NCBI RefSeq assembly: GCF_032854445.1
Contig: NW_027017954.1
Location: 62,001 to 126,000, forward strand
Direction of reading: 5' to 3'
DNA from: Liolophura sinensis
Taxonomy: Eukaryota; Mollusca; Polyplacophora; Chitonida; Chitonidae
DNA: 64,000 nt
The notes under the pieces: generated by a model
The model's database searches: none
What the model was told of the DNA's origin: nothing
Seen by the model: only the letters and a program-made list of their open reading frames with translations
Shown here: piece after piece, positions 729 to 36,980 of the stretch
Position numbering within the stretch: the first letter of the stretch is position 1
Layout of the letters: every line of letters begins with the position of its first letter
Made by a program: the position numbers and the translations under genes

Positions 729-783
729 ATGTTCTTGACCACATGTACCATCGTGTATGTGCTCATCAGTGATATCTCATCCG
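729..783 (+). CDS. Copy A exon 1: signal peptide of FTP/EGF receptor-like protein
   Basis: ATG at 729 opens an 18-codon hydrophobic leader, MFLTTCTIVYVLISDISS, followed by one extra base and a GTATGT donor at 784. The exon ends in phase 1, matching the 2-base starts of all extracellular exons downstream. The leader looks like a secretory signal peptide: hydrophobic core, then small residues. The copy B equivalent (46929-46983) differs at only two codons, TTG/TTC and TCC/TCT. The next exon of the same gene is inferred to be the EGF exon at 14278, or possibly exon X at 6242. Because every intron is phase 1, phase alone cannot choose between these. There is no splice evidence. Confidence 0.55.
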
Positions 784-1017
784 GTATGTACCCATTCTCT
801 TGTTTCGTTGTTTCTGTTAGTATGCTACAGCAAATAATGGAATGCACATATGTCTATCTGATGGATATACTTAATGCGCATCAAATCACACACACGTTGT
901 CTCCATACTGAAGAAAACGTTACTTCAGCCTGTTGTATGGTTACAAATTGGTTTACAACACCAACATTTCAGTGAAAGGGACATGCGCAGTTGTTAAGCC
1001 ATTCCACAAAAGAATTT

Positions 1018-1072
1018 GATTTATTTATTTAATTGGTGTTTTACGCCGTCGTCAAGAATATTTCAATGAAAA
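1018..1072 (-). mobile_element. SINE family 1, 3'-end fragment
   Basis: ATTTATTTATTTAATTGGTG, then the TTTTACGCCG...CAAGAATATTTCA core, is the reverse complement of the 3' end of the tRNA-derived SINE seen nearly full length at 33255-33512. Only the tail is left. Confidence 0.6.
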
Positions 1073-1856
1073 AACGGATAAGTAGATAGCGCTTCTTTTT
1101 CCATTTTTGTTGAATATAGGTAGAAAGATAACACGAGTATGATTATGTGGTAGTACGTGATAGCTATGTCGGGATCCGGGATGGTTCCATCAATGGTAAG
1201 CTGCCATGTATGTGTTTGCGAGTGCTGATTGGAAGCAAGAAAATATATGAGCTGGACTACGAAATACCTATAACATAGTGTGAGATATACTCCGAGCTCA
1301 GATGCTGATTTTTGGAATGAGAAAACAATATTTTGGTGACTTCTCTTACGGCAAACCATCTCGCACTCGGAGATGAACCCTAAGATTTTCTTTAAATATT
1401 AGAATGTTTAAAAAAGCCATGTTTCGTAATCTCTTTGCGTTTTTGTATAGAAACATTTTCAGTTAGTTTTAGTTCATTATTATAGTTCAGGTAGAAATTA
1501 TTACTTACATTAGATATTAGATATTATCGACAGGTTAATACACGTGTCATCCTTGGCGATGATGTAGCCGGCCGCCACTACCCCTCCGCTCCCCCACCAC
1601 CACATATGTTACTTTAGCCCTTCTCTTGCCCTAACTATGGAACCTCATACCCTATCAACATTTAGGTAAGAGAAACGAAACATAAAAATAATGTTTTTAT
1701 ATGATCTTAACGCGGGGAATTCCTGGTTTAAAACCCAATAGATTGTCTTTACCATGTGCCAAGTAATTATTTATAAGGTATATATGTTTTGACTGGAATT
1801 GTTTAGAATCTGTGATTCGAATGAGACATCCACATACCAGCCGTGAACCTAGGGAC

Positions 1857-1994
1857 AGTTTAATCAGGTTTTGTATTGAACTGGACAAAGAATACAAAGA
1901 TTTACTCAAAACAAATGGCGAATACTTAAATGCAGCAAATGTTGATGGTAGGCATAATACGATGACTATGGGTTTAGTATCTAACACCAGATGA
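1857..1994 (+). pseudogene. Exon X remnant in U1, 5'-truncated
   Basis: The frame from TTA at 1860 to TGA at 1992-1994 matches residues about 20-64 of exon X in U2 (6242-6438). It shares RF-ELDKEYK, LL-TNGEYLN and NV-GRH-TMT. The first ~60 bases of the exon and its acceptor are missing; the join falls at an AGGGAC-like sequence, consistent with deletion of the segment kept in U2 at about 5435-6290. The protein family is not recognised. Confidence 0.45.
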
Positions 1995-3219
1995 CATTCA
2001 TTAATACAACTTGACTAGTCTTCTGTGCATTGAGAAGGCATCAGAAAACACAACATATTTTGTAGTAATATAACTTCGGGGATATTGGGAACGAGAACCC
2101 ATGTATAGTGGTGTGAGGATGCTCACTCTCATAAAAGGAGGTAAACTAGGCTGATTACATTGAACATTATGTCATCCGCGACGTATAACCCAGTGCTATG
2201 CAGAGTGGATATTTACAACATTAAGTTCACAGTGTGGCATTTTATGGACAGGCTGCAGGTGAAGCTTTTTACTTCTCGCCTTCCAAATGTCCTACCCAGT
2301 GTGTGGGTTTGACAGAGTGTACAGGTTACGCCCTATTTCTCTTCGGAGGTAACCTTATTTTGCCCTAGATAAAAGATCAGGCGTTCCGTATGAGCTGTGG
2401 TAATATTATCTAGTTCTTTGTAAAGACTATGTAGTTCCCCCAATGTAGGAATGAAAAGAGTTAGGCGATTGACTGGATGATTGAAAAATCTCTAACCTCA
2501 TTATTTCCTCATTTTACAAATGTACACCGATATATAAACTAGTTATAATGTACAGAAGACGAAGTATAAGTATACTAAAGCATTCCAAAAACCTTCTGTA
2601 ATATTGTGACTTTTTCCCCGCGTGATATATCAACCATCACTATGGCAGTAGATACAATTCTGGAGTTTTGGCCGATGGTATATTACACTGTGATCTAAAT
2701 ATGAAGCAATATACTACTTCACTGTCAATCATACACAATCTTTAACTGGTATGTCTACAATTTGGGTTTATGTACGGAGAACAGATTTCTTCTTTCTTTA
2801 TTAACAAGAGCTTCGCTTTACTGATGCTCTGAATTTATTTGCAAAATCCGCTTTCCTCATGCCGATTTCTTATTACGGTTCTAAGAATGTATTTACAGAT
2901 TAAGAAACTTGAATTATGCGTCGTTGTTGAGTTTCTTAACCTAAGTAACAATGAATTTTAGAAGACATTCAGAATAGCACTAAAACAGAAAGACATGTAA
3001 GACTGGTCGACTGGGAAAAATATATTTATCGCTGACGTTGCGGTGTTGAGCTTGATACTTCCTTAATCCTCCTTGATCCTGAAAGCCGGTATAGAATTGG
3101 TAGATTTTGCATAACAAATTGGATCTTGGTGTAAATTGTTGCTACAAGGCCTTAACTTCAAGACTGCCCGACCTCTAACCGACGGCCTTAGATCGATCAG
3201 CGTAAAATACCAAAATTTA

Positions 3220-3400
3220 TGTATAAACATAAATATGAGAGCTAATAAAAGAATTATCGTGTGTTCGAGACAATGTGAATCATCGCCAAGCTCTTTAGTA
3301 ACACCGTACTTTAAGTCTTGTTATGAGCCAAGGTGTGGTTATGTCTGTCACTGTGACTCACACGGTGCCCGTGGCACACGACAGTGTTCTTATATATAGA
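3220..3400 (+). repeat. Five-copy conserved noncoding block, copy 1
   Basis: Contains GAGACAATGTGAATCATCGC, then ACACCGTACTTTAAGTC and GGTTATGTCTGTCACTGTGA. Related blocks lie at 14050-14240, 45885-46175, 49605-49795 and 57340-57540. Copies 1, 3 and 4 are about 0.6-0.9 kb upstream of a signal-peptide exon. Copies 2 and 5 lie directly upstream of the first EGF exon. Function unknown. Confidence 0.6.
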
Positions 3401-4068
3401 GCATTAGAATTATTTTCCATTTGGGTGTTACAGTGTGTTGATGTGAAGAGATTACACTTTTCAAGTTCGTTCCCTATCTCCGCTGCATATAGTACCCTTA
3501 ACCACAGATTTATTTCATTCATCACTAAAAAACACTTCACTTATACAAGAGCGCTAAATTTTAGAAGAAAGCGCAGAGTAAAACACCGGTAAGTAACTAA
3601 CGTACATTGTGTTTGTGAATACTGTACTGTATGTGTTTTTTGTAATAGGATCATATCTATTCATAGATATGTGATCAGAAGTCAGATAAAAATGGGAACG
3701 TATTTCATGGATACTCCATTACCTAGCCCAGAAGCCGAGTGATGGTTGTAGAACTCTTATATAGTATAATGGTGTTCATGTAGAAGGACACGGTGAAAGG
3801 CGAGGTAAGTAGAAACACCCAACACCTTTCAACTGATACAATGATTTATTTCAAGTCTTTCTTTGCACGCCATATTTGTGGCATTTGAGATAGGCTACTG
3901 CTAGTACAGAAAACTTGGTGACCCGTGGAGACCAGTGTCAAGCTGTTGCGTTACCCTACCTCGTCTGTACCCTATACAACGAGGCATACGACACAGAGCC
4001 TGAATGCGTGTAAGCTTAAGACATGTCAGTTGTTCAGTAAGTGTCACTTATAAACTTTTCTGGTAGCA

Positions 4069-4126
4069 ATGATCTTAATCACCCCCTGTACGATCCTGTA
4101 TCTCCTCATCAGTGATATCTAATCCG
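4069..4126 (+). pseudogene. Decayed signal-peptide exon in U2
   Basis: This is the counterpart of the exon at 729. ATG at 4069 opens MILITPCTILYLLISDI, then TAA at 4120-4122 stops the leader before the still-present GTATGT donor at 4127. The upstream TATA is also altered to CTATACAAC. It is probably an inactivated duplicate first exon. Confidence 0.6.
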
Positions 4127-4387
4127 GTATGTGCCCATTCTCTTGTTTCATTGTTTCCGTTAGTTTACTGGAGCAAATAAGGGAATGTACGTATATCTGT
4201 CTCAACCTACACTGATGGATATTCTTAATGCGCATTAAATCACACACACGTTGTATCCATACTAAAGAAAATGTTACTTCAGCCTGTCGTATGATTACCA
4301 ATTAGTTTATAACATTAATACTTTACCAGTACAGCGGAACTTACCCATCAGCAAAAGGGACGTGCACAATTTTTAAGCCATTCCACC

Positions 4388-4470
4388 GAAGAAATGTGTT
4401 TGATTGGTGTTTTACGCCGTACTGAAGAATATTTCACATATACAAAGACGGCCAGCATTACGGTGGCAGG
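4388..4470 (-). mobile_element. SINE family 1, 3'-end fragment
   Basis: TTTGATTGGTGTTTTACGCC with GAAGAATATTTCAC, then GGCCAGCATTACGGTGG: the reverse complement of the SINE 3' end seen at 33400-33512. Confidence 0.6.
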
Positions 4471-5799
4471 GGGAGCTGGGGTGGGGGTTTTTTGGGGTTG
4501 GGGAGGAGGAGGTTGCGGTTGGAGTAAAAAATTACTTCGAGAATTCCAGTGCCAGTCTGACTTAAAATGACTTCGTTATCAGGAAGTAGTTTCGATTCAC
4601 TCCATTTTAACTACAAATATATCGCCGTCCGACATACCATAGACAACTGACACGATTGATAGCGTTTTGTTTTTCATTTTTCTTGAATATACCTGAAAGA
4701 TAACACGAGTATAATTATGTGGTAGCACGTAATAACTATGTCATCTGGGATGGTTCCATCAATGGCAAGCTGCCGTGTATCAGTATGGGACTGCTGACTG
4801 AAAGCATGACGATATATTCAGAGATTTGATGCTGATCTTTGGAATGAGAAAACAATATTTTGGTTATTTCTTTGACGGCAAACCATCCCACACATGGAGA
4901 TAAAACCTAAATTTTTCTTTAAATTTAGAATGTTAAAGAAAGCCTTGTTGCGTATTCTCTTTGCATCTCCGTAAAGAAACATTCTTAGTTTGTTTTGGTT
5001 CAGTATTATCCTTCAGTAACAATATTTGAACATTATTGACGTCAATAACAGCGATACTTTGTGCTAGGGGATCCTCTCATCGATGTTAGGCTGTCATTAG
5101 TTATATTAGGTATTAGATATTATTGACAGGTTAATTCACGTGTCATCCTTGGCGATGATGTAGTCGGCCGCCACTACCCCTCCGCTCCCCCACCACCACA
5201 TATGTTACTTTGGCCCTTCTCTTGCCCAAACTGTGGAACCTCACACCCTATCAACATTTAGGTAAGAGAAACCAAACATAAAAATAAATTTTTTTTATGA
5301 TCTTAACCCGGGTACTTCCTGGTTTACTATAGGTTGTGCCAAAAGTAGTTATTCATCAGGTATATACGTTCTGACTGGAGTTATGTAGAATCTATTATTC
5401 GAAAAAGGCATTTGTATGCCAGCCGTCAACCAATAGGGACCTTCCAGGTCAATACTCGCAAGGCCGGTTTCTCAAAACGACGTATAACACAAACCACCAC
5501 AGAACTAAGTACTTTCCCCCTCAGGGCCAGGCGGAACCAAACACAATCATGAAACAGAGCGCCAGAAATCCCGGACGCTCTGTCCGTATTTACTTACAAG
5601 AGAATTGCACTCACTGCTAAGAAACCTGGAGCGAAGGCGTTTAATGGAACAACCTTGACACACTAGTTTTTGCAGTATTATCTTGTAACGTTGATTGAGG
5701 GCAAATAGAGGGCATTATTTTAAAAAAGGATAACCAAAAAGAACACAATACAAAAGAAGTAAACTACATTGGCGACAAGACAGGTGACACTGCCTTAGT

Positions 5800-5955
5800 G
5801 TGCTTTTGGGTTCTCTACGCCCGAGGTGAATAGCTGGCCAGCGTGGTGCAGTCACCCAAGAGCCTCTCACTAATGCAGCCCTTTTTTCCGACCATACGTG
5901 GGAAGGTCTCTCAGCAAGCTGTAAAACACTGATCAAGTAAATAAATGAAATAAAT
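5800..5955 (+). mobile_element. SINE family 1, internally deleted copy
   Basis: Shows AGAGCCTCTCACTAATGCAG, CCGACCATACGTGGGAAGGT and a tail GTAAAACACTGATCAAGTAA followed by AAATGAAATAAA. These match the tRNA-derived SINE at 33255-33512 with the middle missing. A related copy lies at 51060-51245 in U4. Confidence 0.6.
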
Positions 5956-6241
5956 CAGTGTGATCTCCACGTATGCACTTGTCCGGGATATACGTTATCT
6001 AGGCAAAGATCCGATTGACTGTGTGAAGGGGAGTCTTCTCAATTTGAGTGCTAAGTTTACACAGCGCTACTTTAACTGTTGTTGACGTTCCCGCAGAACA
6101 ATTTCTCTCTCCATGCTGTGAATTGTTTGCTATTAGAAGACACACTAGGGAAACCGCAACATATTTGAGTTGTTAACAGCATAAGTATTTCATAAAGTAT
6201 AACGTGAAATTATTATAACTGACGGCTTTGTGGTGTTGCAG

Positions 6242-6438
6242 AAAATGCCATTTCGACGAATTGGATAGACAATAGATATTTCACGGAGAGCAGTTTAATC
6301 AGGTTTTATGTTGAACTGGACAAAGAATACAAAGTTTTACTCCAAACAAATGGCGAATATTTAAATGTAGCAAATGTTAATGGTAGGCATAAAACGATGA
6401 CACTGGGTATAGTATCTATGCGTCAAAACACCAGATGA
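6242..6438 (+). CDS. Exon X, intact copy in U2: unidentified conserved frame
   Basis: After a GTGTTGCAG acceptor (ending 6241) the frame runs open for 2 bases plus 64 codons to TGA at 6436-6438. It starts NAISTNWIDNRYFTESS and contains YVELDKEYK and NGEYLN. There are no cysteines and no domain I recognise. The 2-base start fits the phase-1 donor of the signal exon at 729, so a spliced 83-residue secreted protein is possible. Alternatively a phase-1 donor (GTAGGC) inside the frame, near 6392, could join it to the EGF exons. U3 keeps the frame open despite a 39-base deletion, exactly 13 codons. U2-U3 differences are mostly amino-acid-changing, so purifying selection is not evident and it may be noncoding. 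Confidence 0.35.
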
Positions 6439-8149
6439 CATTCATTGATACAACTTGACTAGTCTTCTGTGCATTGAGAAGGCATCAGAATACACAACAT
6501 AATTTGTAGTAAGATAACTTCGGGGATATTGGGAACAAAAACCTATTTATAGAGGTGTCAGGACGGCCACTCTCACATAGAAGGATGGGAAGCTAGGCTG
6601 ATTACATTGAGTATTATATCATCAGCGATGTATAACCCATGCTATGCTATTTACAGCATTCAGTTCACATTGTAGCACTTTATGGACAGACTGCAGGTGA
6701 ATCTATTTACCTGTTGTTATCCAAATATCCTACCCAATGAGTGGGTTTGACATGTTATGCTCTGTTTCTCTTCGGAGGAAATCTTAGCTTGCCCAAGATA
6801 AAAGGTCGGGCATTCCGTATGAGCTGTGGTAATATCATCTGGTTCTTTGCAAAAACCAAGTAATTCCACCATTGTTGGAGTCAAAAGAGTTAGGCTTGAC
6901 TGGACGATTGAAGGGCCTCTTGTCTGTTTGAGTTATTAGCTCATTTGAGAAATGTACACCAATATATAAACTAGTTATGATGTACACTTATGGGGAAGTA
7001 TAAATGTCTACTACAGTTGTTCTGTAATATTGTGTCTTTTCACCGCGTGAGATATCACTATCAAACATACACAGTCTTTAACTGGTGTGTTTACAGAGTG
7101 AGTTTACGAACAAAAGAAATACACAGATCCACTTTATACATATGATTATTGTAACATAATCCATTGAGGATAAGGTCTGCTAACGAACTACTATCCATTT
7201 GTCGCACACAGTGTCATAACGCTTTAGAGAGGCTCACCTAAGCGCGGATCACATTTAAACCTTGCGTGATATGGCTTAAACGTGGCCAACGAACGTCTCT
7301 ACTATTTAGTACTGCAAATTCCCATTCCTCAAGCTGTTAACTTCAGAATTGTCCCAAGTTGGCCTAATCGGTCAACAAAGCTCTCAAAAAGACTTGTCGC
7401 TGTTCTGGTTTTACTCTCTATACTGTACGTCCATTAAACTGACGTCGATGCTCTGGGTTTACTCTCTGTATTGTACGTTTTTTATTACATTGTATTCCTG
7501 CATAAACCAGGTTTCTGCTGATGGACTAAGCATCCCCGAGGACTGGTCCCTTTGCACTGTTTTAATGTGATTGTATGTTAAATGTGATGACAACACAATA
7601 TTTTGAGTAAGTCTAATAAATGTCAATTAATATCACTGCGGAATCCACTTTGTCCATTCTGATTTCTTATTACGGTTCTGTGAATGTTATTATTTGATTA
7701 AGAAACTTCAGTCGACTTTCAGAAACAACCTTAATAACAATGGAGGTTATAAGACATCCAGGTTAGCACTAAAACAAAAAAAAAATGTAAAACTGGTCAA
7801 CTGGAAAAATTGTATATTTATCACAGATGTTGCGGCTGGCGCTTGATACTTCCTTGATCCTCCTTGATCGGTATGCAGTTGGTATATTGCGCATAAGAGA
7901 GGAAGTGTCGTGGAAATTGTTGTTATTATTGGTGTAAGACCGTAACTTCAAGACTGATTGTCGGAAAAACCACTGATCACTTACCATACATCGGCGTAAA
8001 ACAGCAGTCCTGATTGAAATATGTAAAGAAAAACAGATATACAAACAGTAAATTGAGCTGGTAACATCCAAAGGGGTGTCAGTCATCATTTTCTTGATTT
8101 CGCATGTAAAGTTGTCGAGATTTTAAACAGTAACATTTTGAACGTGACC

Positions 8150-8932
8150 GTTATCAAAGCCCGCAATAATCGTTACCCCAACCCACAGTAATAGTTACCA
8201 AACCCACAATAATTGCCATTCCAACCCGGGTCAATCGTTACTCCAACTTGCATTAATCGTTACCCCAACCCAAAGTAACAGTTACCCAACCCGTAATAAT
8301 CGTTATCACAACCTAATAATCGTTATCACAACCCACAGTAAAAAATTATCTAACCCGCAATAGTCGTTATCACTTTCCGCAATAAACGTCACCCAACTCG
8401 CAATAATCCTTACCCCAACCCACGTTAATACTTATCCAACCAACAGTAATAGTTACCCAACCCACAGTAATAGTTACACAACCCACAGTAATAGTTACCC
8501 AACCAGCAGTAATCATTATGACAACCCGTAGGAATAGTTACCCAACTCACAGTAATCGTTATTACGACATACAGTAATAGTTACCCCAACTCCCAATAAT
8601 CGTTATCACAATCTGCAGTAATCGTTACCCCAACCCACAGTAATAGTTACCTAACGAGCAATAATCGTTATCACAACCCGTAGTAATACTTACCCAACTC
8701 ACAGTAATCGTTATCACAACCCGCAATAACCGTTACCCCAACCCACGGTAATCGTCATCCATCAGGCGGTAATCGTTACCCCAACCCACAGTAATAATTT
8801 CCCCCACTCGCAATAATTATTATCACAGCCAGCAACAATCGCTACTCCAACCCACAGTAATAGTTACCCAACTCACAGCAATAGTTACCCCAACCCACAG
8901 TAATACTTACCCAACTCACAGTAATATTTACC
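8150..8932 (+). repeat. Minisatellite, ~21-24 bp unit, left part (copy A)
   Basis: Dozens of imperfect units of the types CCCAACCCACAGTAATAGTTA and CAACCCGCAATAATCGTTAT in tandem. The array is split by a SINE (8933-9272) and resumes at 9273-9535. The same array without the SINE is at 54325-55150 in copy B. The units are immediate repeats without conserved spacers, so it is a satellite array and not a CRISPR. Confidence 0.9.
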
Positions 8933-9290
8933 GGCCCGGATAGCACAGTTGGTAAAGCGTCAGCTTCGGAACCGGTAGATCCCGGATCAATCCTTGATTC
9001 AGTCACACCTAAGGCTTTAAAAGAGGAAGTTGTAACTTCCTTGCTTGGCGTTCAGCATGAAGAGGGTAGTGCAACGGCTGATTGACCCGTATCAGTATAA
9101 TGGCTCGGGCGGGGCGCCTTACTCGTCTCAGTGAAGCAGCACTAAATAAAAGAGCGGTGGAAATCCGTCCTGCAACAAGGAGGCACATTACACGTACATG
9201 CACCCTAAGGATTCCTTCGTCGTCATATAACTGAAAAATTTTTGACTACGACGTTAAGCCCTAAAGCACTCACTCACAGTAATATTTACC
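8915..9290 (+). mobile_element. SINE family 2, near full-length, with 18-bp target duplication
   Basis: The tRNA-like head at 8933-9000 contains GATAGCACAGTTGGTAAAGC, which resembles an RNA polymerase III A box, and a degenerate B box GGATCAATCC. The body runs to the tail ACGACGTTAAGCCC and a CTCA-rich end near 9272. CTCACAGTAATATTTACC occurs on both sides (8915-8932 and 9273-9290), consistent with a target-site duplication in the minisatellite. The copy B array lacks it, so it inserted after the A/B duplication. Confidence 0.8.
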
Positions 9291-9535
9291 CCAACCCACA
9301 GTAATAGTTACCCAACTCACAGTAATCGTTATTACAACCAACAGTAGTAGTTACCCCAACTCCCACTAATCGTTGTCACAGTAATTGTTAACCCATCCCA
9401 CAGTTATAGTTACGCAACCCGAAATAATCCCCATCACAACCTGCAGTAATAGTTACCCCCAACTATTAATAATCGTTATCACATCACGCAATAATCGTTA
9501 TCCCAACCCACAGTAATCGCTACCGCTACTCAAAA
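9273..9535 (+). repeat. Minisatellite, right part (copy A)
   Basis: Continuation of the 8150-8932 array after the SINE, with the same CCACAGTAATAGTTACC-type units. It ends at a non-repetitive stretch (ACTCAAAAGAACTCAAA) shared with copy B at 55157. Confidence 0.85.
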
Positions 9536-14240: not shown

Positions 14241-14277
14241 GCTTATTGTAATTGCACCATGTATGTTATAGTTTCAG

Positions 14278-14411
14278 CTGTGTGTCCCGGCAGTACATAC
14301 GGCCCAGACTGTAAATACGACTGTCACTGTGATACCAGTGTGACCTGTGACCCTCAGAATGGTTGTGGAGGGAACTGCGCTGCAGGTTGGACGGACCCAC
14401 GTGTCAAAGGC
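14278..14411 (+). CDS. Copy A exon 2: EGF-like module with a 1-bp frameshift
   Basis: Acceptor GTTTCAG ends at 14277 and donor GTAAGT starts at 14412. The frame reads VCPGSTYGPDCKYDCHCDTS and on to GGNCAAGW: a laminin-type EGF pattern with regular cysteines. Copy B (57589-57723) reads TTGGGACGGACCC where A has TTGGACGGACCC (about 14387-14396), so A is 134 nt and not 135. The loss shifts the last residues and turns the phase-1 end into phase 0. In exon 3 the shifted frame would meet TAA at 14944-14946. This is either a sequencing slip in a G run or a real inactivating lesion. Confidence 0.75.
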
Positions 14412-14793: not shown

Positions 14794-15003
14794 GAAATGT
14801 CGCTCTGGGAAAACCAACATTTCATTCGTCAGACTTCAACGGACACACATCTGAGCTGGCTGTTGACGGTATACTGGGACATTCTTACGATGGTACACCT
14901 TGTACGCACACATGGCAGACACCAAGTCCAGCTTCCTGGAGAGTAACACTGGGCGCCGTGTACTGGATTAACAACTTCACCATATACAACAGAAAAGAAA
15001 ACT
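14794..15003 (+). CDS. Copy A exon 3: FTP/fucolectin-type domain, N-terminal half
   Basis: Between TTATAG and the GTAAGT donor at 15004, the phase-1 frame reads NVALGKPTFHSSD, then ELAVDGILGHSY, CTHT, SWRVTLGAVYWI and FTIYNRKE. NVALGKP, S-x-LAVDG, C-x-HT, W-R-V-x-L-G-x-V and YNR are hallmarks of the fucolectin/tachylectin-4/pentraxin-1 (F5/8-like) fold. With exon 4 this makes a domain of about 139 residues, a normal size. The candidate ligand residues are the His of CTHT and the Arg of YNR, spaced 27 apart, where fucolectins have about 24. The protein would be extracellular. The frame is intact locally but lies behind the exon 2 frameshift. Confidence 0.85.
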
Positions 15004-15868
15004 GTAAGTAACCATGTTTAGTCTGATTATTTTCTGCTTCTCTGTTTTCTCTGTTTAATTGCACAGCCATAGGCATTTTGTTTTTCTTCTGCTTTATGCT
15101 ATTTTCAAAGCTTTTAATAATGGGACTGGCGCGACACTTCGTAAGGAAAGTGAAACAAGTTAGCTCTGCAGTGTAGAGATTTCTGTTAAATACCGTATTC
15201 GCTTTAGTCTTCTTCTCTTTTTTCTACGGAAAAAAACATCATGTAAATCAGTTTAAAGTTATAAGGAGTGACACTGCCACGGTATGATTGTCAGACCCTT
15301 TACGTTTGCCTCGTTTTCGAATACATAGACATTATCGTCGTCATATAAGTCAGTGAGGTACTTAACACTTACAATGTAAATGAATAAACGCCTTTGCCTG
15401 TCAGTCACTAGAACACAAGATGTGTGGGTTCAAACCTACCCTTGGGCAGACAATTTGTATTTTCCTCTGTTCTGGCAATTCGTTTGATCTCGGTGAAAAT
15501 AAGCGCTTGACGACTTTCGTGTCCACAATTTAACGTTCGTTGAAGATCACTTGTCTAACATGTTCGTCAGTAACTTGCCCAAGGTTGATGGTTTCTCCCG
15601 TGCAATTCGTTTTCTTCCACGCAAGACCTGATCTCCATTGTGCGAGTGTAATATTCTTGAGCATAGGTTTACCCAACAATCAGATAAATGACTAAATGTT
15701 TAGATATAAAAAGCAGAACCTGCTATTCAGTATTTAATTTGAGAGTTAAACGTTTCAAATTATTTACTGGTCAAATTATGTTGTGTTACGAGAATTTAGC
15801 TGAGCAGAATAATTAGAGGAATTCCTTTTATTACAACACATGAATCTATAGCTTTATGTTCTTTACAG

Positions 15869-16075
15869 TGGGACGTCGACTTAGCGGCTTCACTTTGCAT
15901 GTGGGAAACTCCTCCCAGGCTTACAAAACCTGTTATAAAGACACCACACCCATTACCACGACTCCTGGGCCCATCGTAACCGAACACTGTACGGGAGGTC
16001 CGGTGTCAGGAGACACCGTCATGATAACATCACGTCGAGACGAATATCTAACACTTTGTGAAGTTCTCATCTACG
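15869..16075 (+). CDS. Copy A exon 4: FTP/fucolectin-type domain, C-terminal half
   Basis: Acceptor TTCTTTACAG ends at 15868 and donor GTACGT starts at 16076; phase 1 on both sides. The frame reads RRLSGFTLHVGNSS, YKTCY, HCTGGPVSGDTVMI and ends YLTLCEVLIYG. RLSGFTL-V-G, a paired Cys and LTLCEV-I-G are the typical end of the FTP domain. Across the splice, R-K-E-N-L-G-R-R forms an R-x-E-x4-R variant of the fucolectin R-x-D-x4-[RK] motif. Compared with copy B, most differing codons change the amino acid. Confidence 0.85.
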
Positions 16076-17576: not shown

Positions 17577-17672
17577 TGTGTTCCGCTGGATGGTATGGTG
17601 AAATGTGTGGACGACAATGTAATACAACGACAGCATGTTCCAAATGTGATGTCACAAGGACACGGTGTACAG
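17577..17672 (+). CDS. Copy A exon 5: short EGF-like module
   Basis: Acceptor CTCCTGACAG ends at 17576; the donor at 17673 is GTAAAG. The 96-nt phase-1 exon reads VCSAGWYGEMCGRQCNTTTA, then CSKCDV and RCTG. C-x3-GWYG-x-x-C-x3-C is an EGF/laminin-like start; the module is shorter than its neighbours. The copy B equivalent is 60318-60413. Confidence 0.8.
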
Positions 17673-19732: not shown

Positions 19733-19882
19733 AATGTGTTGACGGTCGATGGGAAGAACATTGTCAAAAGGACTGTGGCCATTGTTGGGCCGACAAATGT
19801 GATAAAGTTACTGGGGAATGTCCTCTAACTGAAGGAAGGCCAAGATGCGATGCTGGCTTCATGCGTGAGAATTGTTCGACAG
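19733..19882 (+). CDS. Copy A exon 6: EGF-like module
   Basis: Acceptor ACTTTTGCAG ends at 19732 and donor GTAAGT starts at 19883; 150 nt, phase 1 both ends. Reads CVDGRWEEHCQKDCGHC, then ADKCDKVTGECP and RCDAGFMRENC: a full EGF-like cysteine pattern of the multiple-EGF/draper type. The copy B equivalent (62560-62709) has R-to-N, E-to-N and S-to-W changes and a GTTAGT donor. The intron just downstream carries tandem copies of this exon's last bases. Confidence 0.85.
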
Positions 19883-20420
19883 GTAAGTGTGTAGAATTCA
19901 GTATGACAGAAAGAAAATCCAAGATGTGATGTTGGCTACATGTGTAGCATGTACAGAACATGTAAGTGTGTAGGATTTAGTACAATAGAGGTGAAACACA
20001 AGAAGTCACATGGATAGGCAGGTATGTAAGATTCAGTATCACAGAGAGTAAAGTCAGTGTGTCATACTGGCTACATGTGTAACGGACGCAGGACAGTTAA
20101 GTGTGTAGGATTTAGTACAGCAGAGACGAAACACAAGAAGCTACATGGGTAACATGTAATTGACAGGCAGGTGTGTAAGATTCAGTACAACAGAGAGGAA
20201 AGCCAAGATGTGATGCTGGCTACATGTGTAGCAGGTGCAGTACAGGTAAGTGTGTAGGATTTAGTACAGCAGAGATGAAACACAAGACGTTACATGGGTA
20301 ACATGTAAGGGATAGGCAGGTGTGTAAGATTCAGCACAACAGAGAGGGAAGCCAAGATGTGATGCTGGCTACATGTGTAGCAGGTGCAGTACAGGTAAGT
20401 GTGTGAGATTCAGTACAATG
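19883..20420 (+). repeat. Tandem intronic repeats derived from the exon 6 end and its splice donor
   Basis: Units of about 135-150 bp recur from about 19917, 20052, 20201 and 20349. Each holds CCAAGATGTGATGCTGGCTA (or a decayed form), then ACAGGTAAGTGTGTAGGATT. These resemble the exon end CCAAGATGCGATGCTGGCTT and its donor. Copy B has about two units (62710-62950). The copies keep GTAAGT-like donors, so they could act as decoy splice sites (inference). Confidence 0.8.
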
Positions 20421-22021: not shown

Positions 22022-22168
22022 CCTGTGAGGCGGGTAAATATGGCCACGACTGTAACGAGACCTGTGGATCGTGTGCATCTGGACCGGACAGCTGTAACAC
22101 TACTTCCGGGCACTGTCAGGGTGAACCCAGATGCATGCCGGGATATTCTGGTCTGAAATGTAAAACTG
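22022..22168 (+). CDS. Copy A exon 7: EGF-like module
   Basis: Acceptor CATCAAG ends at 22021; donor GTGAGA starts at 22169. 147 nt, phase 1 both ends: [17 protein letters not shown], then [23 protein letters not shown]. First of three near-identical EGF exons (also 23419 and 26013), produced by exon duplication within the gene. Confidence 0.88.
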
Positions 22169-23418: not shown

Positions 23419-23565
23419 CCTGTGAAGCAGGTAAATATGGCTCACGCTGTACCGAGACCTGTGGATCGTGCGCAAGTGGACCGGACAGTTGTAACACGGC
23501 ATCCGGGTACTGTCGTGGTAATCCCAGATGCATGCCGGGATATTCTAGTTTGAAGTGTAAAACAG
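23419..23565 (+). CDS. Copy A exon 8: EGF-like module, duplicate of exon 7
   Basis: Acceptor TTGAATTAAG; donor GTGAGT at 23566. 147 nt: CEAGKYGSRCTETCGSC, GPDSCNTASGYC, RCMPGYSSLKC. All cysteines are kept. Flanking intron blocks such as AGAGCAATTATGTCGTTATG (about 22926) recur before exon 9 (about 25425), showing that exon and intron were duplicated together. Confidence 0.85.
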
Positions 23566-25735: not shown

Positions 25736-25880
<145 letters not shown>

Positions 25881-26012: not shown

Positions 26013-26156
26013 CCTGTGAAGCAGGTAAATATGGCCACGACTGTAACGAGACCTGTGGATCGTGTGCACGTGGACCAGACAGTTGTAACACTACATCCGG
26101 GCACTGTCCGGGTGATCCCAGATGCATGCCGGGATATTCTGGTTTGAAATGTAAAG
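26013..26156 (+). CDS. Copy A exon 9: EGF-like module, duplicate of exon 7
   Basis: Acceptor ACATGAAG ends at 26012; donor GTGAGT at 26157. 144 nt: [41 protein letters not shown]. One codon shorter at the 3' end than exons 7 and 8. It is nearer to exon 7 than exon 8 is. Confidence 0.88.
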
Positions 26157-29984: not shown

Positions 29985-30105
29985 TCTTTTCACGTAGGAC
30001 CCACAGGAAGCCAGCATGAGCTGGACTTAAACTGACAACGACCGCTTTGGTGACGCCCTTGTGTCATTGCGCTGCGTTATCATACTAACCATTTGGCCAC
30101 TAAAT
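29985..30105 (-). mobile_element. SINE family 1, 5' (tRNA-like) part, next to exon 10
   Basis: AGGAAGCCAGCATGAGCTGG, then GTGTCATTGCGCTGCG and TACTAACCATTTGGCCAC, read as the reverse complement of the SINE 5' half. It ends about 30 bases before the exon 10 acceptor, so the branch-point region of that intron may be SINE-derived. Confidence 0.65.
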
Positions 30106-30134
30106 ATTTTTTGAACATTTGACTTTTTTGGCAG

Positions 30135-30287
30135 GATGTGATGCTGGGTTTTGGGGAGCCGACTGTGAGGAAAAGTGTGGCGAATGTTATAACAACGTCA
30201 CGTGTGACAGAGCATCTGGGGGCTGTCCAATCACAGAAGAGAATCCCCGCTGTAAGGCCGGTTTCTTGGGATCTAACTGTCGACAAA
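30135..30287 (+). CDS. Copy A exon 10: EGF-like module
   Basis: Acceptor TTTTTTGGCAG ends at 30134; donor GTTAGT at 30288. 153 nt, phase 1: CDAGFWGADCEEKCGEC, NNVTCDRASGGCP, RCKAGFLGSNCRQ. A complete EGF-like cysteine set. Confidence 0.85.
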
Positions 30288-30421
30288 GTTAGTATGCCAG
30301 TCCCTTGTATTAAATCAAAATGTCTGTTGTTACTAACTAAAAACCTTCCCCTTCTAAAAGGGTCTTATTCTATATCCCTTCTCCTTACACATACCCTATC
30401 AAAGTCTTTACATATTTACGC

Positions 30422-30616
30422 TCAAACCATCCGGAATTTCTTTACGTTAGTCTATATATAAGGCCGACGGAGTTGTGAAGCTGGCCATCATTTACTAAAG
30501 TCCACAACAGTCACTTAGAAAGTCCACTTGACGTTGCGTAAGGTTTGTCGCTTATCTGAGAGGTAAACAAACCAGTTGTTTCTCATCTTTGCTCTCCGAT
30601 AGTGGTACCATTACAT
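30422..30616 (+). mobile_element. Left LTR remnant of the Ty3/gypsy element
   Basis: AAACCATCC, TTTACGTTAGTCTATA, GCTGGCCATCATTTACTAAA and GTCCAC match 35013-35130 near the right end of the element in the same order. A TTTGGGACTTGTCCAGGA-like primer-binding-site candidate follows at about 30618. The 5' end of this LTR is not clear and may be truncated. Confidence 0.5.
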
Positions 30617-30788
30617 ATTTGGGACTTGTCCAGGAACTAAAATCTGCTTGTGCTAGATTGTAGCACGTTAATTGTCAACGGTGTTAGCGGTGCTTAGAGG
30701 TGTTTTGGTTCCTATTTTGGATCAAACAGAGATTGACATTTTGTGAAACTACTTATGTAATTTCTTTGTACACTATATTGTGTCATTA

Positions 30789-31690
30789 TGGCTGAGGAAT
30801 TTAATGCACCTTCAATCCTTGATTGCGAGGATTTGTCGGTTGTTGAGTTGTCTACGAAGGCAGATTTAAGGAAAATATCTGACATGTGTCTATTAGACTT
30901 AAGCCAGAAGCCCTAAGATTATTAGAAAGTTGAAAGTTGAAAGTTAGAAAGGGAAAGTGAGTTTGAGTTAGAGACGGTGATATTAAAAAAGGGAGAAACA
31001 GAGTTAAAAGAGTCACAGAGTTTGAACAGGAGTTCAAACTGAAGGAACCCCGGGGTAAAAGTAGTGATAAAGAAGCTGTTAGTCGTAATCAGCAAGGGAT
31101 TGGTTTGACCCAAAGCCTTCGATTAGTGCCCAAATACGATGATAAGGCTGTTGAAAGTTTTTTTCTGTCCCAAAATATGAGAAAGTGGCTGTTAACTTGG
31201 AGTGGCCTGAAGGTACTGGACAATGTTACTGCAGAGTACATTGGAAGGTTAAGCTGCAGAGGTCTATTCTACTTTGTCGGTAGATCAGTCTTCAGTTTAC
31301 AACACAGTCAATGCACTGGTCTTGTCTGCTTTTGAGCGCTTTTGCCGGAGGCCTGTAGACAGAAGTTCAGACAGTTAAGGAAACAGCTGATGAAACTTAC
31401 GTGGAGTTTGTCGGGGGTAAAGAAACACTGTTTAATAGCTTGTATAGGGCTCTGGCGTTAGGTCATTCTTTTCAGAATTTAAGGGAGGCTATTCTCTTGG
31501 AGGAATTTAAGAACAATGTTGGAAATGAGGTCAAGGCTCATTTAGGTGAACAAAAGGTCAAGGACATTAAGACCGCGGCAAGTTTGGCTGATGAATATGA
31601 GTTAAATCATAAGAGTGATGAACAAAAATGTCAGGCTAAATTTCAGAAGTGGAATTCCGATAAAAAGACTTCAAATTTTAGTACTGACAA
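30789..31690 (+). pseudogene. Gypsy gag remnant
   Basis: ATG at 30789 opens MAEEFNAPSILDCEDLS and soon meets stops. The 31401-31690 part reads LFNSLYRALALGHSFQNLRE, AILLEEFKNN and AASLADEYELNHKSD, the SCAN-like gag pattern of metazoan gypsy elements. Frameshifts separate the blocks. Confidence 0.65.
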
Positions 31691-31710
31691 GCAGATAACA
31701 AAAGTCAAAT

Positions 31711-32067
31711 GTGTGTTTTTCTTCTGATACGTTCCCCGTCAACATACGCAGTTTTTGTCCTATCGTCAAATCATACGTTAAAGAGGTAGGACAGACACCA
31801 GAGACATACTGGGGATTCATGTCTGATGGTGTGGTTACTGTGAATGGAGTTACCTCCCCTGTTCGTATACTTAGGAATCTTCGGGCAAATCAGTCTGATG
31901 TTAGCAGATGTTATTCCGATAAGGCTGCCAGTCATGTTCTGATCCAGGGTTTTAATGGAAATTTTATGTCTGTTCCCTTACTAGAGGTTACCATAACTTC
32001 TGATTTGGTTACTGAAGGGGTTGTTAAGAGTTTGCCTGAGAAAGGTATTTTCTTTCTTGCTCGGTAA
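31711..32067 (+). pseudogene. Gypsy protease-region remnant
   Basis: Reads GFMSDGVVTVNGVTSPVRIL, then RNLRANQSD where an aspartic protease D-T-G-A would be expected, then VLIQGFNGNFMSVPLLEV. The catalytic Asp is replaced by Asn. The frame ends in a stop at 32065-32067. Confidence 0.65.
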
Positions 32068-32463
32068 TGACTTAGCATGAAATTAAGTTAAGGTTTGTCC
32101 TCATGTCTGCAGTGTACAGGTTTTTGGACGAAAATACAAAAGACCTACGAAAAGTTTCCAGGTATATTTCCCTCTTGTGTGGTTACCAGGTCACAGTAAA
32201 GAGCTAGGGAGAAGGAAGACAATTCTTCTGTAACCATCGGGGATTCAGCGGGTAATATTAATTTGGCTGAAACGTTCTTTCATGATATTGATGGTGTAGA
32301 GAATGTAAGGGAATTAAGTAAGTCTGCTTTATTTTGAGGAAATACCTGGAGAGTGGGCTGTTGAGAAGAGAGTATTGACTGCCTGATGCATTAGCTAATG
32401 ATTAAGCAAATTTGAATCAAGTTTTCTCACCTCTAACTGTAGACAGGAACTACTTAAGATGGG

Positions 32464-33210
32464 TCATGAGATTCCAATAGGTGGACATTTAGGCATTAGA
32501 AAATAAAATCGCTCGCTATATTTATTGGCCTAAGATTCACAGGGATGTGGTTAATTTCTGTAAGACAGGTCACACCTGTTAGCTTGTCGGAAAACCACAG
32601 CATAGTATAAGGCCTGCATCCTTAATTCCAAATCCGGGTTTTAGTGTGCCTTTTAGTAAGGTACTTATTGACTATTATGGATACAGCTAACAGATACAGC
32701 TAACTACACCTCGGATAGTTAATAGTCTGTTAATCTTTTTACCAGATATGGTTTACCTAAGGAAATACAAACTGACCAGGGCTCCATCGTTATGTCTGGT
32801 TTATATCAGGAAGTTATGTGGGATTAAGCAGCTTTAATCCACACCTTATCACTGTCGATCCCAAGGGGCTTTGGAAATATACCACCAAATCATGAAGAGC
32901 GCTCTACGAGCATACTGTATGGAAAATTCTGAAACTTGGACAAAGCGATAAAATTTGTATTGTTTGCCTCTAGAGATACTCCTAATGAGTACACTGGGAT
33001 TAGTCCATTGGAGTTGGTGTATGGTCTTAAGGTTAGATGTCCTCAGGAAACAGAAGTAACCTTATTAGATTATGTTTGCCCCTACCTCACGAACCGCTTA
33101 AGGCCAAGTTTAGTGGACCATATCGGTTAGCAAAAAGCTAACGCTGTTAACTACATTATTAGCACACCTGGTCATCGGGAAACTGTCACATGTCGCATTA
33201 ATATGTTGAG
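32464..33210 (+). pseudogene. Gypsy integrase remnant
   Basis: HEIPIGGHLGIRK and FCKTGHTC (zinc-finger region) and LVGKPQ are followed by RYGLPKEIQTDQGS (core), FASRDTPNEYTGISPLELVY and, near 33195-33215, a RINMLSILG-like end. Several stops and a C-to-G change in the zinc finger. It precedes the RT region. Confidence 0.75.
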
Positions 33211-33254
33211 CATTTTAGGTAAAGTGTTAAGTCACCTTTCTAAATGTCGGAGAC

Positions 33255-33512
33255 AGGATTGGCTCTGTTGGTTAGCGCGCTAACGCAACGTAATGACCCG
33301 GAAGCCTTCACCAATGAGGTTGCTGTGAGTTCAAGTCATGCTCATGCTGGCTTCCTTTCCGACCGTACGTGGGAAGGTCTGCCATCAACCTGCGGATGGT
33401 CGTGGGTTTCCCCCAGGCTCTGCCTGGTTTCCTCCCACCATAATGCTGGCGGCTGTCGGAGAAGTGAAATATTCTTGAGTACGGCGTAAAACATCAATCA
33501 AAAAAATAAATA
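33255..33512 (+). mobile_element. SINE family 1, near full-length reference copy
   Basis: The tRNA-like head GGCTCTGTTGGTTAGCGCGC (A-box-like) and GTGAGTTCAAGTCATGCTC (B-box-like) are followed by CCTGCGGATGGTCGTGGG, CCACCATAATGCTGGCGG, TTCTTGAGTACGGCGTAAAA and an A-rich tail. It lies between the integrase and RT parts of the gypsy remnant. Confidence 0.85.
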
Positions 33513-33519
33513 AAATATG

Positions 33520-34640
33520 TTTTGATGTACCTGGTTGTACTAATGCTGCAGGACATGATGTAGATGTAGGAGGGGCTGTACCCATCAAACATCACCCTTT
33601 CAGGATTAACCCTGCAATGCTAAAGCTTGTTAACTAGGAAATACGGTACATGTTAGACAGCGGGGTTATAGGGCATAGCCGGAGTGGCTGTTGTTCACCA
33701 ACTGTAGTTTTTTTTTAGTTCGATGGTTCTATACGCCTATATGTGGATTACAGAAAGATCAATGCTGTAAACAAGACGGATTCTTATCCTATTCCTCGTA
33801 GTGAGGATTGTGTTGATAGGGTAGGAAATGCCAAGTTTATTACTAAGATTGCTCTTAGTAAGAACCTGGTAAACATCTCGAAAAGACAATTCTCTTGATT
33901 GTCTTAATTAGGTTTAGTGACTGATCTCAAGAAGAATTTGCCAAAGAACAAGCGGCATACCTTGGTCCCTCATTCAGCCAGAATCCAGGCCATACTATCT
34001 TTACCAGTGCATACTTGTAGGAAAGACCTTCTTAGAGTGCTTGGGGTATGTCGTTTTACCGTACGTTTGTGCCCAATTTCAGCGATCTTGCTGTTCCATT
34101 GACTCTGTTGCCCAAAAAGAATGTCAAGTGTGTATGGTCAGATAGTTGTTAGTCAGTTTTAATGGGTTAAAGGACATTCTATCTAAACGTCCTATTTTCA
34201 AAGCGCCAAATCTAAGCCGTCCTTTTCAGATGCCTAGTGACATCGAAGTAGGATCTGCTTTACTCCAGGAAGGAGAAGATGGAATGAATGAATGATTATG
34301 ATTTAACGCCACATCGGCAATATTTCAGCCATATCGTGGCGAGTACAGAAGATGGAATAGAACAGCCTGTGAGCTATTTCTCTAGGAACTTAAATAGACA
34401 TCAAAGGAATTAGTCCACCATAGAAAAGGAGGCGTCTGGCCTGGTGCTGGCTGTACAGCATTTCGAATTGTAATTGACCAGTTGCTCTGGTAATATCACT
34501 ATGTATACTGATCACGACCCTTTGGTGTTCTTAGAAAAGTTTTAAGAACAAGAATCAAAGATTATTACGATGGTATTTGACCTTACAGCCTTATGATGTG
34601 GAAATTATACATATTGCTTGTAAGAACAACAGTGTGGCTG
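33520..34640 (+). pseudogene. Gypsy reverse transcriptase / RNase H remnant
   Basis: FDVPGCTNAAGHDVDVGGAV, then HHPFRINPAMLKL and YVDYRKINAVNKTDSYPIPR mark the RT start (to about 33800). KDLLRVLGVC and FVPNFSDLAVPLT follow at about 34020-34105. RNase H gives EKEASGLVLAVQHFE and MYTDHDPLVFLEKF (34420-34540). The palm segment with the catalytic Asp pair is missing, apparently deleted near 33890-33920. Confidence 0.75.
34274..34358 (-). mobile_element. LINE 3'-tail-only insertion, 12-bp target duplication
   Basis: AGAAGATGGAAT at 34274-34285 and 34347-34358 flanks about 61 bases: GAATGAATGATTATGATTTA, ACGCCACATCGGCAATATTT and CAGCCATATCGTGGCGAG. This is the reverse complement of the LINE 3' end at 44121-44178, a severely 5'-truncated insertion into the gypsy RNase H region. 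Confidence 0.8.
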
Positions 34641-34809
34641 ACATGCTATCGAGAGCTTGGTTGACATTTGTGTATGCATATTTCTTTCTATACGTACATT
34701 TTTTCCCTTATTACATCATTTTGCCATTATTGTATATATATGTTATATTTATTGTAAAAAAAAATGGGTACTTATGTACAGTTATCTTTTCTTTTTGGGG
34801 GAGAGTAAG

Positions 34810-35342
34810 TGTTACGAACCATGTTTTTCAATATTGCATTATTTTTTTGTTATTTGTTCCTGAGTCAGTGTCTGACTTACATTTTTCCCTCTGTGCCTGC
34901 TTTGCACTGTAATTCAGTCGAGCGTTCTAGGGGCTTCGGGGTTTATGAGTATAGTGTCATCGTACATAGAGTACACTTTCTGGAAATATGTATCGGTGTT
35001 GTAAACATGTTTAAAACCATCCAGATTATTTTTTACGTTTATCTATAAATATTACCGACAGACTTGTGCAGCTGGCAGTCATTTAGTTAAGTCCATTTGA
35101 GAGCAGTCATTTACTGAAGTCCACTGGAGAGCAGTCATACTTACCGTCCTCCTCTGTGAAGGAGTTTGCTGGGTTTAGACATATCGGCTTTTACGCCATT
35201 TGACTTTCGTACTCCATTTTCTGTACAGGACACTTTGTGAGATTGTGTTTCGCCACCGGCCACTCTTCTCGTCGCCACCCGTGTCTATTCCAAGCAAGCT
35301 TATAGCATTCCTCGCTCCGCTTTAGCCGGTGTCAGGCTTACA
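34810..35342 (+). mobile_element. Right LTR (probable) of the Ty3/gypsy element
   Basis: Preceded by a purine-rich TTTTTGGGGGAGAG and starting TGTTACGAACC. The part from AAACCATCC (35013) to about 35130 matches the left LTR. An internal ~30-40-bp repeat (GCAGTCATTTA-T-AAGTCCA) occurs twice at about 35074-35125. The 3' end, near GGCTTACA, is a guess. Confidence 0.5.
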
Positions 35343-35565
35343 TGGGTTCCTTTGCTTTCCAGGGTTGTTATGTGCTAGTTTTAGTGTCCAAGATTGATGC
35401 CAGCCTATGTTGTGAGATTCATTCTAGCTTGCCTTTAACGATTGCAGTGCAGACAAAAACAGAACAAGAAAGCTGACAATGCAAGCTATAGAACGGTAAC
35501 ACTGAAACATCGACAAATGAGACAGAAGTCTGAAGATAACAGAAATATGTGTTCTATTTTGACAG

Positions 35566-35706
35566 CATGCTCCCCTGGCACATGGGGGCAAAATTGCAAA
35601 CTTACTTGTAGTCTGAACTGTCTTAATGGTCCAACCGGATGTGACGTCAGGAATGGAGCATGTATTGGAGGTTGTACAGATGGACATGAAGGCAGATTTT
35701 GTACCC
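35566..35706 (+). CDS. Copy A exon 11: last EGF-like module
   Basis: Acceptor TTTTGACAG ends at 35565; donor GTAAGC at 35707. 141 nt, phase 1: CSPGTWGQNCKLTCSLNC, NGPTGCDVRNGAC, GCTDGHEGRFCT. A complete EGF-like module. Its final phase-1 base joins the transmembrane exon to give Pro. Confidence 0.88.
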
Positions 35707-36309
35707 GTAAGCATCATTACCTGAAAAAGATTATCTTTGAATGTAAATGCACTCTCTTGGTGACATTTCAACTGATAATAGAACGTCGCCAATAATTTTG
35801 CGTCTAAAAGTAATTCCTAAGGTGCCAGTGGCTTAATGATTATACACAAGAGTATCCTAATATCATTAATATTTGAAAGATCAGCATTTGCTGTCGATTA
35901 CGCTCCATTTACAGGCTGTTTCGGTTTTAATCCTACAACAGATAATTATCTCCATGTGGAAGGCAGGATATCAACAATCCATTGCATATTTCCTTGTTTA
36001 TGTAACTCAGTACGCAGCTCAAAGTCAGTCCCACCTTGAAGATCTAACATATTCCGCCAAAGTTGCACCGCATTAGATTTCCCATACGCCCACCCCTCTC
36101 ACTTTAATAGCATATGTCTGTCGATGTCAGAGTGTAGGCTTTGTCCCACAGCGCCATTGTGTAACGACTTTGTTTAAAAAATAAACATTTCTGTGCTGCT
36201 GAAATGTTCACCGTCATAAAATACATTGCTCGCCAAAAACTGAATAAGATGTAGCACAATAAAATCAGCAATTTCAGCTTTGTTTAAATGTGTATTTTAT
36301 CGTTTGTAG

Positions 36310-36397
36310 CAGTCAACTATAACTACACAGGAGTGGTTATAGGCTGTGTGGCTGTGGTGGTCGCTGTCGTAATCGTCGTTATTGTACTGATGTACAC
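36310..36397 (+). CDS. Copy A exon 12: transmembrane segment
   Basis: Acceptor CGTTTGTAG ends at 36309; donor GTAAGT starts at 36398. The frame reads VNYNYTGVVIGCVAVVVAVV, continuing IVVIVLMYT: about 23 uninterrupted hydrophobic residues after a short polar stalk with a possible N-glycosylation site (NYT). The exon starts with 2 bases and ends with 2, joining a G from exon 13 to make Thr, then Arg-Arg as a stop-transfer signal. It makes the protein a type I membrane protein. Confidence 0.88.
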
Positions 36398-36769
36398 GTA
36401 AGTGATGCCAACTGAAAATAGGACCATGAATGTTTATTCCACAGTATAGGATATAGATATACATGTAATATTTTATGTATTTATTATATTTTTATAATAC
36501 TTTGTTATACACTAAAGGTTGTGATACACCTAAAGCTGTACCCATTGTTCCCTCTCTGTGATACAGAATAATGTGCAATTTAAATCCTAATACGTTTACA
36601 TGTATTCAGAAAATGTGACGAAATAATCCGAATAAATCGATATTAGAGATAAGTATATTGTAATATGCTGCTGTAATAATTTTCGCTTTGTTGGGTTTAT
36701 ATTTTGTGTTAAGATAGTATATCTTTGTTGAAATTATTTAGGTGACCATAGACTGTATTATTTCTACAG

Positions 36770-36980
36770 GAGAAGATGTCACGGTAATAAGTCAGGAGGA
36801 ACCTCTGAGCGTTCGGATCCGGCCCACGTCCAAAATCGGGAGAGTTCTAATCAAGGGAGAGAAGCGCGGATTTCAACTCCAGTGGACAGCAACCCGTATG
36901 AGAGTGTTTATGAGAATGAATACGACAAAATCCGATTTTCTTGTAATGACACCGAGGCCAGTTACACACCTGTTACTTAA
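36770..36980 (+). CDS. Copy A exon 13: cytoplasmic tail with clustered tyrosine motifs and stop
   Basis: Acceptor ATTTCTACAG ends at 36769. The frame set by exon 12 starts RRCHGNKSGGTSERS and runs 69 codons to TAA at 36978-36980. Near the end it reads SNPYESVYENEYDKIRFS, with Tyr codons at 36897, 36909 and 36921, and later TEASYTPVT. YESV and YDKI are YxxV/YxxI motifs four residues apart, a compressed ITAM-like arrangement. YENE fits a YxN SH2-binding motif (known for GRB2). No kinase or phosphatase domain is present, so signalling by recruited SH2 proteins is inferred. A longer overlapping frame (36742-37077) is out of phase with exon 12. Confidence 0.82.

Follow-up and report, generated by a model that had tools for sequence, protein, structure and literature searches.

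The 64,000 nucleotides analysed here (the window) come from the chiton Liolophura sinensis and correspond to positions 62,001–126,000 of contig NW_027017954.1, which has 810,550 bases and is referred to as C15 in the following. They harbor a predicted membrane receptor gene, gene A, which extends on the forward strand (729–36980) from an ATG at 729 to a TAA stop at 36978–36980. Since window positions 1–21,570 recur in pieces at 46,233–63,879, with roughly 72–91% identity, the window holds gene A together with the 5' part of a sister, gene B. Both belong to an array on C15, in which the same kind of lectin head is followed either by a transmembrane (TM) helix and a short tyrosine-containing tail (S type) or by protein tyrosine phosphatase (PTP) exons (R type). 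Relatives were identified by scanning the genome (609 Mb in 632 contigs). The phosphatase array, the tandem copy within the window and a frameshift in gene A go beyond a preliminary description, which had been made from the letters of the window.

Gene A is built of AG/GT-bounded exons for a leader, a first EGF repeat (EGF1), a fucolectin-type (FTP) domain split over two exons, seven further EGF repeats, a TM helix and a tail, so that each part listed in the preliminary description, down to the tail of about 70 residues, has its exon. Twelve of the 13 exons join into a single frame of 582 residues, and we infer that they are spliced in this order. The second FTP exon was located in a search for symmetric phase-1 exons that covered gene A and three of its sisters; another candidate, at 15503–15628 (LDDFRVHNL...), was rejected since its frame does not supply the remainder of the domain. 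The claim of 13 phase-compatible exons holds for these twelve and fails at exon 2, whose 134 bases break the frame at the conserved donor (GTAAGT after 14411) and put the FTP exon out of frame. This is because gene A lacks one G of GGTTGGGACGG that is kept in the ten other copies of the exon 2 alignment, which took in 11 of the 16 known copies (7 S, 4 R). A 13-exon open frame requires a weaker internal donor (CAG/GTTGGA) that trims the end of EGF1; skipping exon 2 preserves the frame, because the intact exon is symmetric. Given this break, gene A cannot be called intact. The deletion could be genuine or could stem from misassembly of a run of Gs, and the gene may be damaged or may function without its first EGF. 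R gene C (C15:~196.2 kb) has a similar frame break in its second FTP exon, caused by one additional G in TGTGGGGAAAC.

The FTP assignment is borne out by profile searches: exon 3 alone matches PF22633 (E=2.5e-6), and the joined protein, without exon 2, matches PF22633 (4.2e-12) and PF00754 (1.3e-6), both over the cut-off. In the PDB, the FTP domain matches the lectins FBP32 (3cqo, MsaFBP32; 6e-23) and AAA (1k12, Anguilla agglutinin; 2.5e-8), which have the same domain. A histidine and two arginines of gene A align with the basic fucose triad H52, R79 and R86 of AAA, with a glutamate at the position of D81; the roles of these residues in AAA are described in PMC5712786. Cysteines of gene A likewise align with C50, C124 and C146 of AAA, and the Cys-Cys pair of complementarity-determining region (CDR) 4 is missing, as it is in the C-terminal domain of FBP32. 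By profile and aligned triad, this is an F-type lectin domain, and glycan binding is predicted. In gene A, unlike in FBP32 and AAA, the domain would form the head of a membrane receptor whose stalk consists of EGF repeats. Six of the seven EGF repeats after the FTP domain show an eight-cysteine pattern, the exception being EGF2. No Pfam EGF model matched the joined protein at E up to 0.01, so that the EGF assignment of the preliminary description was not recovered by profile; the EGF array matches Tie2 (1.6e-9), a protein with eight-cysteine EGF repeats, and may be Tie-like. Unlike Tie2, gene A has no kinase, and we know of no lectin head on a Tie or MEGF protein.

The tail contains YESV, YENE and YDKI within 12 residues, as previously noted, and shows no noteworthy match in Pfam. 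Four tails on two other contigs, C7 and C14, are 47–58% identical to that of gene A over the matched core (E 0.002–0.15), and the pattern P-Y-E-x-V...E-Y-D-K-x-R-F-S is kept in all five rows. The core, YxxV-x4-YDK[IVM], is common to these five tails and to the tails of seven S genes. A further tyrosine follows 10–12 residues after the core in four of the five aligned rows, with a serine in the remaining one; YTxV/L occurs ten residues past YDK[IV] in C15-type tails and some distant tails, and the four distant tails have an extra YYNM or YHNM motif. Of the four distant tails first read, three have EGF-type matches upstream. A search from one distant tail yielded 11 strong tails including the query (10 on C7, 1 on C14; E 4e-12 or better), a weaker one on C7 (7.5e-4) and all seven C15-type tails (0.017–0.37). 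A PTP exon lies within about 85 kb of each of the 11 C7/C14 tails and of six C15 tails, counts that are not independent because the copies are clustered. Weak tail-like matches (41–43%, E 0.4–0.8) at three places in C1:56.11–56.20 Mb could be a further branch or chance.

The preliminary description called this tail ITAM-like, which fails in the strict sense. The immunoreceptor tyrosine-based activation motif (ITAM) has the consensus YxxL/I-x6-8-YxxL/I, and its inhibitory counterpart (ITIM) is [I/V/L/S]xYxx[I/V/L]. The core pair of gene A reads YxxV-x4-YxxI, i.e. with a spacing of 4 and V at +3, and position -2 is occupied by N in YESV and YDKI and by A in YTPV, which does not fit a strict ITIM. 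Plausible roles for pYExV and pYDKI/V are those of SH2 sites and, in the unphosphorylated state, of AP-2 sorting signals.

Beyond the window, 14 EGF1–FTP copies lie in a row on C15, with PTP exons on the same contig. Types were called from the order of EGF1+FTP, tail, PTP and leader matches rather than from transcripts, and 150 of 397 candidates were scored in the PTP exon search (PF00102). By this order, eight copies are R genes (FTP matches from 3247, 119573, 194135, 270158, 432389, 536165, 593894 and 697616) and six are S genes with an intact tail (76260, which is gene A, 333535, 379951, 500255, 660950 and 769247), so that homologous heads and different signalling tails are found together in one cluster. 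A seventh S gene lies on the minus strand of C7 (14917429, tail at 14889611). The leader has a DNA match upstream of every C15 copy where one would fit (13 of 13) and of both C7 copies, with a further match at 804943, close to the end of C15. All seven S genes have open EGF8, TM and tail exons and an EGF7 exon free of stops; close copies of EGF7 (84–98%) occur at these seven genes, the next best scored match having ~54% (150 of 410 candidates scored). That a lectin head and a short tyrosine tail form one membrane protein, as proposed earlier, is thus backed by the gene model, by seven genes that have these EGF8, TM and tail exons in common and by the constraint on the TM and tail exons described below.

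No PTP match follows the tail of gene A on the forward strand between 36.7 and 46.3 kb of the window, and the first PTP exon found downstream lies beyond the leader and FTP domain of gene B. Without a cytoplasmic PTP domain, gene A is not a receptor tyrosine phosphatase itself. Gene B, by exon order, extends beyond the window, with PTP exons at C15:152308 and 157072, and the motifs of its first phosphatase domain (D1) are intact, with WPDHGAP and VHC/SAGIGRTG kept. Between each of the eight R genes and the next leader, there is a diverged short-tail match without a leader or FTP match of its own; in the three of these S remnants that could be read, the EGF3-like exon contains a stop.

The heads and tails of these genes vary in different ways, as seen in the proportions of nonsynonymous (pN) and synonymous (pS) differences. 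In the first FTP exon, pN is 0.113 and pS 0.070 among 11 copies, with 0.062 in the adjoining intron; among 15 of the 16 copies, the values are 0.110 and 0.078. The copy dropped from this larger set, R_594, was misaligned through a change in CDR1 length, observed in the FTP domain of the gene at C15:~594.5 kb. EGF1, by comparison, has a pN of 0.041 and a pS of 0.135 in ten copies (10 of the 11 rows, gene A excluded), and variable columns are mildly denser in the first FTP exon (54/210) than in EGF1 (21/134; p=0.03). Variable residues concentrate in the predicted sugar-binding loops (the counterparts of AAA CDR1, CDR2 and the turn after H52), with 20/25 positions against 11/44 elsewhere (Fisher 1.3e-5, 15 of 16 copies), although this contrast is weakened by the loop limits having been set partly with the variation already seen. 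S and R heads are intermixed and form no separate groups by type: the mean distances are 0.202 (S-S), 0.190 (R-R) and 0.190 (S-R; permutation 0.63, 15 of 16 copies), counting as R the copy R_c7b (C7:14.868 Mb), for which no PTP exon was found. For four of the seven S heads, such as S_380 with R_B, an R head is the nearest or joint nearest relative. At the other end of the protein, the TM (pN 0, pS 0.047), tail (0.011, 0.046) and EGF8 exons (0.011, 0.089) are constrained across the seven S genes.

Table 1. Features of gene A, gene B and the S remnants (window positions, except for the remnants, which are given as C15 positions).
Feature	Positions	Strand	Remarks
Gene A exon 1, leader	729–783	+	MFLTTCTIVYVLISDISS; donor GTATGT, phase 1
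Gene A exon 2, EGF1	14278–14411	+	134 bases; private 1-base deletion (GGTTGGACGG vs GGTTGGGACGG); frame broken with conserved donor
Gene A exon 3, FTP first half	14794–15003	+	fucose-motif His and most variable loops
Gene A exon 4, FTP second half	15869–16075	+	RRLSGF...LTLCEVLIY
Gene A exon 5, EGF2	17577–17672	+	six cysteines; 33/33 residues same in R gene 0
Gene A exon 6, EGF3	19733–19882	+	
Gene A exon 7, EGF4	22022–22168	+	
Gene A exon 8, EGF5	23419–23565	+	
Gene A exon 9, EGF6	26013–26156	+	
Gene A exon 10, EGF7	30135–30287	+	
Gene A exon 11, EGF8	35566–35706	+	
Gene A exon 12, TM helix	36310–36397	+	VNYNYTGVVIGCVAVVVAVVIVVIVLMY
Gene A exon 13, cytoplasmic tail	36770–36980	+	70 residues; YESV-YENE-YDKI and SYTPV; stop TAA
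Second leader-like exon copy	4072–4122	+	ILITPCTILYLLISDI, ending in an in-frame stop
Gene B, R-type sister, 5' part	46929–64000	+	leader 46929, EGF1 57594
Gene B FTP exons	58101–58313, 59171–59377	+	
Gene B EGF2, EGF3	60317, 62562	+	
Diverged S remnants on C15	58579, 177107, 249702, 317758, 483632, 578348, 644190, 750021		

Several smaller features accompany these genes. Two leader-like exons stand about 3 kb apart at window positions 729/4072 and 46929/50466 and at C15:182164/185302; the second, which has a stop in gene A and is open in gene C, is a possible alternative first exon. Pieces of the EGF3 exon end (PRCDAGYM...GKCV) are repeated in the next intron, partly in frame (window 19841–20418 and 62658–62948). 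A minisatellite of ~21–22 bases (CCCAACCCACAGTAATAGTTA) is present in both tandem units (window 8149–8932, 9272–9519 and 54527–55144), and a Tc1/mariner-type transposon lies between genes A and B (window 40713–41805, forward strand; HTH_38 4.8e-8, DDE_3 1.9e-14), with its HTH and DDE parts in different frames. A PTP-like non-canonical motif, VHVMCPLGAGRIS, occurs in three R genes, 0, B and C (C15:38917, 154998 and 222383), ahead of an exon with a match to the N-terminal portion of a second PTP domain.

With a probability of about 45%, we read gene A as an S-type lectin receptor copy within an array whose R sisters would put the same kind of head on a phosphatase, i.e. as part of a paired-receptor-like system. 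We favour this reading because of the active-looking phosphatase that the sisters have beneath a head of this kind. In such a system, the lectin head would bind a fucose-type glycan, and receptor clustering would expose the tail (YExV, YDKI/V) to phosphorylation by a Src-family kinase, after which the tail could dock SH2 proteins. R receptors sensing the same or related glycans would bring their phosphatase and thereby set or oppose the S signal, and the arms would stay matched as loop variants diversify and are exchanged between the two gene types. A role in immunity or self-recognition, raised as a possibility in the preliminary description, finds no more than indirect support in the loop-focused variation of the heads and in their being shared with PTP sisters. 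Taken further, tandem duplication and sequence exchange could have placed one diversified F-type lectin head on signalling ends of opposite sign, namely a conserved SH2-docking tyrosine tail (S) and a built-in phosphatase (R), yielding an invertebrate paired-receptor complex that would hold glycan repertoire and signal sign in one array for self/non-self recognition; this fuller version is possible but doubtful.

A number of observations weigh against the paired-receptor-like reading. Diversifying selection on the lectin loops is suggested rather than proven, since the codon bootstrap for pN>pS in the first FTP exon is just 0.88, the second exon shows no pN excess (0.090 vs a pS of 0.104) and variable columns are not significantly denser in the first exon than in the neighbouring intron (75/377; p=0.12). 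The second-exon count covers 12 of the 16 copies; of the other four, R_270 was not matched at the position guessed for it, R_c7b has N there, R_C has a broken frame and S_500 gave no match. Positive selection over the whole FTP domain is thus not established, the first exon being suggestive and the second not. On the tail side, two of the five aligned rows are near-identical, and C15-type and C7/C14-type tails match weakly over both searches (E 0.002–0.37), so their kinship rests on the invariant core. Individual S genes also fall short: the deletion in gene A breaks the frame if the conserved splice site is used, an F replaces the motif His in the gene at 333 kb, the gene at 500 kb has no second FTP exon at the expected place, and for the one at C7:14.89 Mb the matches listed include no PTP exon within 600 kb. 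Finally, the leaderless S remnant after all eight R genes indicates that loss is frequent.

In a rival view, the S genes, gene A included, are decaying by-products of the phosphatase array, receptors that lost their PTP part via unequal crossing-over. The remnants, the private deletion of gene A and the fact that its region at 10–22 kb matches R gene 0 in pieces with about 76–92% identity would all fit, but decay explains neither the seven S genes with open EGF7, EGF8, TM and tail exons, the last three constrained, nor the tail relatives in other clusters, and no PTP match was found on the forward strand at 36.7–46.3 kb of the window, after the tail of gene A. We therefore regard this as quite improbable. 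An even less probable view, akin to that of the preliminary description, takes the tail as a true ITAM and the receptor as a self-contained activating immune receptor. Two YxxV/I motifs near each other and the further YTxV/L of C15-type and some distant tails speak for it; it conflicts with the spacing of 4, the V at +3 and the replacement of the third tyrosine by serine in one of the five aligned tails.

Endocytic sorting is a serious rival to the signalling reading. YxxPhi sorting signals have a bulky hydrophobic residue as Phi, and YESV, YDKI and YTPV/YTVV could be read in this way by AP-2 when unphosphorylated; the S genes would then be clearance (scavenger or phagocytic) lectins that internalise fucosylated particles, with the phosphatase sisters a separate matter. 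In gene A this pattern is seen at three of four tail tyrosines, YENE being the exception, the EGF array is similar to Tie-type repeats, and the observed tail constraint would be expected just as much. However, the shared core exceeds YxxPhi, with P before and E after the tyrosine and with EYDKxRFS, the added YYNM or YHNM of the four distant tails would be better explained by SH2 docking, and the co-location with phosphatase genes would be unexpected. On balance, we consider a clearance function unlikely.

Receptor tyrosine phosphatases typically carry ectodomains of MAM, Ig and FN3 domains. Gene B shares their active-looking D1 (WPD, HC/SAGIGRTG), but the ectodomain of the R type would consist of an F-type lectin domain and EGF repeats instead. 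Vertebrate paired activating and inhibitory receptor families combine homologous, varied heads with different signalling ends in clusters, and the fester family of Botryllus resembles the array in the same way (PMC12065747). Unlike in these families, the head is an F-type lectin here, one arm comes with its own phosphatase in place of an ITIM, and the TM helix of gene A has no charged residue. That source also describes systems in invertebrates for which a balance of ITAM and ITIM signals has been proposed, and names Botryllus and Hydractinia as studied cases of recognition-receptor diversification and signal balance in invertebrates.

Membrane F-type lectins are already known, as a figure legend in PMC5712786 names a transmembrane domain among their domain types. 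For furrowed, a membrane F-type lectin, this legend gives CCP repeats, and the accessible text mentions no EGF stalk, phosphatase sisters or tyrosine tail. The same source also reports CDR1/CDR2 variation among eel isoforms, which resembles the head variation of the array. In the snail Gigantopelta aegis, a figure on gene family expansion lists FUCL, MEGF and PTPRK, with fucolectin and MEGF expanded (PMC7895826). All three labels would fit pieces of the array genes, so related genes may exist in this snail under separate names; the three families are listed apart, and the accessible part of the source describes neither a joined lectin-EGF-phosphatase nor a short-tail architecture. In the open-licence literature, as far as its texts were accessible, no description of an F-type lectin-EGF-PTP receptor or of a short-tail/phosphatase pairing was found.

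If an array does join one kind of lectin head both to a phosphatase and to a tyrosine tail, the balance of activating and inhibitory signals would become directly testable, with one head bound and two outputs read. Such an array also suggests that what is listed in expanded families under separate labels, such as fucolectin, MEGF and PTPRK, may belong together as parts of a single receptor system.

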